DNA of 64,000 bases from Spartobacteria bacterium (GTDB taxonomy: Bacteria; Verrucomicrobiota; Verrucomicrobiia; Chthoniobacterales; UBA10450). The notes beneath the pieces are model-generated. The model saw only the letters and a list, made by a program, of their open reading frames with translations. It did no database searches and was not told where the DNA came from. The number at the start of each line of letters is the position of its first letter. The stretch's first letter is position 1. This document shows positions 27,209 through 48,151 of the stretch, piece by piece. The stretch covers positions 186,001 to 250,000 of the forward strand of contig PMSN01000025.1 of the NCBI GenBank assembly GCA_003167555.1, given 5' to 3'. The position numbers were made by a program, and so were the translations under genes.

Positions 27209-27241
27209 GGGAAGCGCAGGGTGTGAAAACCCTGCGCTCCC
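27209..27241 (-). terminator. strong hairpin terminator after the small CWRC gene
   Basis: A 13-bp stem (GCGCAGGGT/ACCCTGCGC extended by GGGA/TTCCC with one bulged base) and 6-nt loop, 20 nt past the stop of the small CWRC gene on the minus strand and followed by a short TTTT. It would isolate the CWRC mini-gene from the Usp operon. Confidence 0.55.
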
Positions 27242-27260: not shown

Positions 27261-27455
27261 TTACATGTAATTCAGCGCACCGCAGCGCCAGCACGTAAAC
27301 CAACTCCAGTTGCCGTGCACGTAATTGCCGGCCCCATCGTTCCAGCACGTGTAAAGCAACCGATGGCGGCGGCCGCCCACTTCAGCACCGTCCGCATCTT
27401 TCTCTGTGCCGGCTCCACCTTCTTTGTCCGGCTTCTTGCCTGTTTCGTCAGCCAT
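27261..27455 (-). CDS. small cysteine-motif protein, CWRC family, copy 1
   Basis: A 64-residue protein of unknown function. Residues 1-30 are charged, Gly/Lys/Asp-rich and surely disordered. Residues 33-64 form a compact conserved end: LLYTC, then NDGAGNYV, W-x-W, and FTCWRCG followed by a Tyr near the C-terminus. Three cysteines (C-x17-C-x2-C) could hold a metal, but no fourth ligand is certain. An AAAGGAAATAAGAG leader gives a plausible ribosome site, and its own hairpin terminator follows. A paralog lies at 47780. I recognise no named family. Confidence 0.75.
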   Translation of the reverse strand: MADETGKKPDKEGGAGTEKDADGAEVGGRRHRLLYTCWNDGAGNYVHGNWSWFTCWRCGALNYM

Positions 27456-27694
27456 AACTCTTATTTCCTTTCTGCAGTTTTTGTTTGTTGACTGGCCGCC
27501 GCATCACTCGATGTGGCAGCGATTTTTTTCCCTGGACGGATCACCCGTCCTCCCAACCATGCGCTTTAGACGCGCGGTCTTGGTCTGTTTGCGATTCAGC
27601 CAAATTTGCGAGCGACTTGAAACCACATTCGGGGCGTTCGAGATTTGATAACGACTGCTTGTCGGACGGAAAATGTGGTTTGTAGTGAAGAAAG

Positions 27695-47779: not shown

Positions 47780-47986
47780 TCAAATGTAAGTAAGATCGCC
47801 ACACCGCCAGCACGTGAACCACGTCCAACTCGGGTCGACGTAGTTCCCGGCGCCGTCATTGAAGCAGGTGTACAGCAGCATCCGCTTACTTCTACCAGCT
47901 ACTTCATCGGCCGCGTTCTCGTCTTTTTCTTTGCCGACACCGCCGTTTCCATCTTTCGGTTCTCTTTCCTTTTTGTCTTCAGCCAT
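47780..47986 (-). CDS. small cysteine-motif protein, CWRC family, copy 2
   Basis: A 68-residue paralog of the protein at 27261. The first 35 residues are charged and low-complexity (MAEDKKEREPKDGNGG). The end repeats the same pattern: LLYTC, NDGAGNYV, W-x-W and FTCWRCG, with a Tyr two residues from the C-terminus. The peptides agree at most positions from RxxLLYTC onward while the DNA differs at many third positions, evidence of selection on the protein. I use ATG at 47986; it gives the same MA(D/E) start as copy 1. It ends 10 nt before the deaminase remnant. Confidence 0.72.
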   Translation of the reverse strand: MAEDKKEREPKDGNGGVGKEKDENAADEVAGRSKRMLLYTCFNDGAGNYVDPSWTWFTCWRCGDLTYI

Positions 47987-48151
47987 ATTGGTTAATACGG
48001 TGGACGATAGCTCCATTTGCAATGAAAATAAGCTGTTCGTGCGAGTACATTTTTAGTTGCTCGCAACCTTTTCGCAGGATATTCAATCACGGCGAGGGTT
48101 AGCATTTCTAACGCAGGGATGTTTCTGAACCATTTCAGCTAGAATTACCTT

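Follow-up and report, generated by a model that had tools for sequence, protein, structure and literature searches.

The window, by which we mean the whole stretch of 64,000 nucleotides that was analysed, comes from a 4.2-Mb Spartobacteria genome (G000) that is 98% complete, and it carries two genes for related small proteins. Copy 1 (27261–27455, minus strand) encodes a small zinc-ribbon protein of 64 amino acids and of the C-x2-D...C-x2-C type (MADETGKKPDKEGGAGTEKDADGAEVGGRRHRLLYTCWNDGAGNYVHGNWSWFTCWRCGALNYM). Its charged, Gly-rich N-terminal head, which we propose to be a leader (residues 1–29; 27369–27455, minus strand; AF2 pLDDT low at residues 1–5 and 22–28), is followed by a ribbon core of the form CxxD-x14-CxxC (residues 30–64; 27264–27368, minus strand). 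Copy 2 (47780–47986, minus strand) encodes 68 amino acids of the same family, again with C-x2-D...C-x2-C. The two products are 60% identical (tblastn, E=2e-20), and the paralog pair reported in an earlier sequence-only reading is present, although its statement that nearly the whole of the C-terminal 32 residues is shared was somewhat overstated (24 of the 32 are identical).

The two copies in the window belong to a set of nine in this genome, all of them open and conserved, with two pairs lying close together (on C24 and C20). In all seven further genomes of the genus there are three to eight copies, and copies in such numbers are beyond what chance would give. Over a core of 27 codons, copies 1 and 2 have a pS of 0.97, a saturated value at which essentially all synonymous sites differ, and a pN of 0.14; for copy 1 and its closest paralog the same core gives a pS of 0.49 and a pN of 0.04. 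Because pS is far above pN in both comparisons, we conclude that the peptide is under purifying selection, as had been proposed from the window.

Relatives of the window proteins form a family of 60–80 residue peptides that has no name in Pfam or NCBIfam. Each begins with a charged, Gly-rich head and continues into a C-x2-C/D...C-x2-C pattern, mostly with 14–19 residues between the knuckles, which is the arrangement expected of a zinc ribbon (two CxxC-type knuckles roughly 10–30 residues apart). There are 57 distinct members, of which 31 are Cys4 and 26, including both window copies, read CxxD...CxxC. The three-Cys signature originally described (LLYTC/NDGAGNYV/FTCWRCG) is thus real, but it marks a subgroup of one genus within a wider CxxC...CxxC family. 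Because the divergent relatives read CxxC...CxxC, the Cys3Asp type of the window is, judged by this pattern, derived from a Cys4 zinc ribbon in which the second Cys, the fourth ligand, has become Asp. On the tree the Cys/Asp label takes two changes and is also compatible with one, with support limited by the short sequences.

Searches of model libraries gave no Pfam or NCBIfam match for the window protein. Cys4 members do match many Pfam and NCBIfam zinc-ribbon models, and every score falls below the curated cut-off. The Pfam zinc ribbons (Zn_ribbon_3 PF13248, Zn_ribbon_FGT1_1, HVO_2753_ZBP) and those in the PDB (such as Rpb12 and LysW) resemble the family in their CxxC...CxxC knuckles and in the beta topology predicted for it, whereas length, head and gene context differ. 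The best PDB match of the family profile is Rpb12 (E=9e-4). AF2 predicts a core of four strands (residues 32–36, 43–47, 52–54 and 61–63) with a pLDDT of about 80–85 and a mostly poorly predicted head, and structure matches from Foldseek and VIA are mostly to zinc-binding folds, although weak (Foldseek E > 0.2, VIA Z < 4). Matches to TMEM55B, RBR ligases and LysW (Z 2.0–2.6 for LysW) were rejected as identities, since they indicate generic zinc folds only. From the Cys pattern, the sub-cut-off zinc-ribbon models, the Rpb12 match, the AF2 core and the zinc-fold structure matches, zinc binding by the core is likely, and the tail of the window proteins is probably metal-binding. With many homologs, fold-level zinc-ribbon signals and no library family, the earlier reading stands: these are small proteins of a new family, in which a charged, disordered head precedes a compact tail.

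The two window genes differ in their expression signals. Copy 1 does have its own ribosome site, as the sequence-only reading had stated: a Shine-Dalgarno AAAGGA (27466–27471, minus strand) lies 10 nt before the ATG and is conserved in orthologs. Upstream of it is a 5' UTR hairpin (27495–27520, minus strand) that is conserved in the copy-1-type genes of the genus, which also have in common a spacer rich in ACAA and a ribosome site resembling AAAGGA. In this hairpin 85% of cells are paired, compared with at most 62% in slid controls; because its covariation score is reached by 18 of 500 shuffles, we regard its support as moderate. No counterpart was found for it in copy-2-type genes or in other genera. 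Downstream of the stop codon lies a second hairpin (27209–27241, minus strand; -30.7 kcal/mol, z=-5.4, none of 200 shuffles as strong). The strength noted earlier is confirmed, and the hairpin is a probable terminator, but its T-run is short (ATTTTG) and it was not called by the terminator scan. Similar hairpins (GCGGAAGAGCAGGGTTC...CCCTGCGCTTCC) follow other ribbon genes in the genus, and the element may be a dispersed repeat. In Rfam, neither leader nor terminator has a family above threshold; one sub-threshold match, to a CRISPR repeat, falls on the terminator palindrome.

Copy 2 is preceded by a promoter-like TTGCAA-N17-CGTAT (47995–48022, minus strand) that lies 8 nt before its ATG. Copy-2-type genes in general have TTGCAA-N15/17-CGTAT ending about 8 nt upstream of the ATG, a spacing that suggests leaderless mRNAs, and the copy 2 transcript is probably leaderless. 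Exact matches to the motif number 8 in the genome, against 3 for the reversed control, with the copy 2 site outside the count of 8 because its spacer is one base longer. Related promoter-like motifs occur upstream of ribbon genes in family f5 and in genus g5. A promoter common to the ribbon genes and to the GAF and ABC genes described below was considered and rejected: TTGCAA-N15/17-CGTMT stands before many ribbons and, except at one f6 locus, not before GAF or ABC genes, so that the linked sigma factor is no more than a candidate regulator of the ribbon genes. At locus L160, in family f6, two near-identical promoter-like sites (TTGCAAGAAAC..CGTCTATTCTGTTA), at about 4549 (plus strand) and 6679 (minus strand), flank the GAF-S8 block, and the first of them precedes a small Cys-rich ORF (MSQNTHAYCSQC...LRCADCG).

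We surveyed 213 genomes of the order, all of which appear to be metagenome assemblies. Further homologs, for which a profile search had been suggested earlier, are many: they occur in the genus of the window and in a few representatives of families f1 (genus g5), f4 and f5 of the same order. The contigs with ribbon matches appear to come from soil-type metagenomes. No ribbon gene was found in genomes sampled from other orders of the class or in a phylum-level sample; among sampled genomes, the family is restricted to this one order of soil Verrucomicrobiota. A phage or plasmid gene was rejected for the collections searched, as viral contigs, phages and plasmids gave no match.

The most constant neighbour of the ribbon genes lies outside the window. 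In families f1, f4 and f5, genes of one ABC subfamily are followed directly, on the same strand, by one to three ribbon genes at 16 of 17 loci, and at the seventeenth the contig ends 150 bp past the ABC gene. The product is a full exporter (TMD-NBD) without a C39 peptidase. Its gene is present in 16 of the 213 genomes, all 16 of which have the ribbon family, and the only additional ribbon-positive genome (G132) has a weak match to unrelated multi-ribbon proteins. The subfamily, too, was not seen in the genomes sampled from other orders of the class. Because the distribution within families is patchy, shared ancestry alone explains this co-occurrence poorly. Every genome of the window's genus has one ABC gene of the subfamily and several ribbons; in G000 it lies at C24:239897-242041, upstream of two ribbons. 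The linkage and the co-occurrence are direct observations, and they suggest an exporter dedicated to the ribbon peptides, for which, taken jointly with the leader cleavage discussed below, we see the chances as about even. What had been read from the pattern in the window holds, and the context outside it, the ABC exporter and an S8 protease, is more informative than the pattern.

Heads and cores meet at a recurrent motif. In copy 1 it is EVGGR (residues 25–29; 27369–27383, minus strand), a proposed S8 cleavage motif ending at Arg29, and in copy 2 EVAGR (47891–47905, minus strand), likewise a proposed cleavage motif. The general form [E/D][V/A]x[G/P]R, defined post hoc from the same sequences, is present at the head end in 48 of the 57 distinct members, with Arg there in 56. 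It stands 5–9 residues N-terminal of the first Cys, and the rest of the head, which is without a classic hydrophobic leader helix, diverges strongly between families. Among the proteases of class I lanthipeptides, NisP recognises (A/G-5)(A-4)X2(R-1) and the cytosolic ElxP (D/E-5)(L/V-4)X2(Q-1) (PMC10885120); the family motif has an acidic -5, V/A at -4 and Arg at -1, with the same spacing. One locus, L167:2760-8033 (G005:C29), encodes a 1758-aa nSTAND1-WD40-TPR protein with a C-terminal ribbon domain that has no EVxGR motif; no release would be needed there, in keeping with its absence.

In several genomes a candidate protease is encoded in the same cluster. It is an S8 subtilase, about 270 aa long, in which the Asp/His/Ser motifs of subtilases are present and a prodomain or obvious signal peptide is not; it scores 84.3 bits against the QhpE model, below the cut-off of 165, and its similarity to mycosin is equal. 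Its gene occurs in 29 genomes and that of a GAF-domain protein in 29, with both in 28, and the two are adjacent wherever both are visible. GAF, S8, ABC and ribbon genes are contiguous in G064, G178 and G087, and G173 has the order ABC-ribbon-ribbon-YkuD-GAF-S8. In the genus of the window the S8 and ABC loci are separate (the S8 locus of G000 is at C3:53119-54530, outside the window), and in G005, with its ABC gene and seven ribbons, neither S8 nor GAF was detected. S8-GAF pairs are also present in 13 genomes of the order that lack the ABC gene, so the protease is not dedicated to ribbon peptides; a CxxC...CxxC scan around these ABC-less pairs found no ribbon genes. An ECF-like sigma gene recurs together with GAF and S8 as a module across several families of the order (L160, L150, L153, L166, L172 and others), and this module, too, occurs without ABC or ribbon genes. 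Beside the GAF-S8 pair of G000 (C3:46000-60000, L147) are CobW-type, SIR2-TIR, nSTAND1-TPR and SLATT-like proteins, a conflict-system-like set. PADLOC anti-phage defence models gave no match for the ribbon, GAF or sigma protein, and the S8 and ABC proteins match generic subtilase and ATPase-type models only.

The closest parallel we can draw is with QhpC, the gamma subunit of quinohemoprotein amine dehydrogenase, whose 28-residue leader is cut in the cytosol by QhpE before export by the ABC protein QhpF (PMC7876137). There, as here, one cluster encodes a small Cys-containing polypeptide, a cytosolic subtilisin-like leader protease and an efflux ABC protein. The Qhp system also includes the radical-SAM protein QhpD, the flavoprotein QhpG and dehydrogenase subunits, none of which was seen here, and the family differs from QhpC in that its peptides are ribbon-type and multi-copy. 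With an S8 score under the QhpE cut-off and no radical-SAM gene among the identified neighbours (part of the neighbours were scanned), the ribbon clusters do not class as Qhp systems. Class I lanthipeptide clusters likewise combine an S8 protease (NisP/ElxP), a C39-less NisT-type ABC protein and a small precursor, and their leaders have the -5/-4/-1 spacing of the junction motif; they differ in that the core here has a zinc-ribbon pattern and is more conserved than the leader. No LanB or LanC was found among the neighbours identified by Pfam (again for the part scanned), and no peptide-modifying enzyme was seen among the identified neighbours. We rejected a classic RiPP with a hypervariable core, since the core is the conserved part.

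The hallmarks of an S8-plus-ABC leader-peptide system, a protease-type junction motif with linked protease and exporter genes, are thus found together. We propose that the ribbon genes encode precursors in which the N-terminal 25–45 residues are a leader ending in E-V/A-x-G-R. The cut after the Arg would be made in the cytosol by the subtilisin-like S8 protease, whose gene shares the cluster in some genomes and almost always has that of the GAF-domain protein beside it, and the freed Cys4 or Cys3Asp ribbon peptide of about 33–45 residues would leave the cytoplasm through the dedicated ABC exporter, whose gene immediately precedes one to three peptide genes. One exporter would serve three to nine scattered peptides in the genus of the window, both window copies among them. 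The exporter linkage, the co-occurrence and the protease-type motif lead us to favour leader removal and export of this QhpC/QhpE/QhpF kind, a proposal that we judge about equally likely to be right or wrong. Against it weigh the S8-GAF pairs of genomes without the ABC gene, the case of G005, the lack of modifying enzymes among the identified neighbours, the head without a hydrophobic leader helix, the S8 score below the QhpE cut-off and the post hoc definition of the motif; in addition, a pre-folded zinc ribbon would be an odd ABC substrate, and a ribbon domain is fused to the large, apparently cytosolic STAND protein.

That fusion, at the C-terminus of an nSTAND1-WD40-TPR protein, speaks instead for an intracellular zinc-ribbon adaptor that binds the ABC ATPase domain, the ECF sigma/GAF/S8 module, or STAND or kinase-type signalling proteins, its head serving as a flexible regulatory tail and possibly as an S8 degradation signal. 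As a rule, zinc ribbons are found inside the cell. TPR-S/cyclase, TIR and STAND genes lie close to several copies or to the GAF-S8 pair, and ECF-like sigma genes adjoin GAF-S8 at many loci. The fusion and the signalling-type neighbours keep such a role open, and we consider it possible, if somewhat unlikely, since it would leave unexplained both the LanP-like motif at the head/core junction and the finding that the neighbour seen most consistently, with almost perfect co-occurrence, is a full ABC exporter. In several genomes of the window's genus, S8 has a CobW-type protein beside it (169 bits against the zinc metallochaperone ZigA, cut-off 600), which would fit metal handling, with the ribbons as zinc-binding cargo or buffers, a cluster that exports or redistributes zinc, and a Cys4-to-Cys3Asp change that tunes affinity; clusters from other families showed no CobW, however, and we think this improbable. 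More improbable still is a zinc ribbon that binds RNA or the ribosome and regulates its own expression through the 5' UTR hairpin. The best structural and profile look-alikes do include ribosomal and RNA-polymerase zinc ribbons, and the leader hairpin is conserved in copy-1-type genes, but the matches reflect the fold in general, copy-2-type genes and other genera showed no such hairpin, and the exporter linkage would be left unexplained.

If leader removal and export is the correct reading, a further step would be a new secretion system, in which the GAF-linked S8 protease trims and the ABC protein exports Cys4 and Cys3Asp ribbons, which uncultured soil bacteria would use outside the cell as signals, metallophores or antagonistic peptides; we offer this only tentatively, and regard it as doubtful. 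To our knowledge, trimming and export is not a job known for zinc-ribbon proteins, and we found no relevant literature on this gene set in Verrucomicrobia. The family is new to the libraries searched, and its mechanism would be a variant of S8-plus-ABC peptide export, to which it would add zinc-ribbon cargo. A multi-copy family of small proteins without a library name would also gain a function, and soil Verrucomicrobiota would offer a secreted-peptide system that can be tested. The mixture of Cys4 and Cys3Asp members within one genus provides a natural setting in which to test ligand swapping in zinc ribbons.
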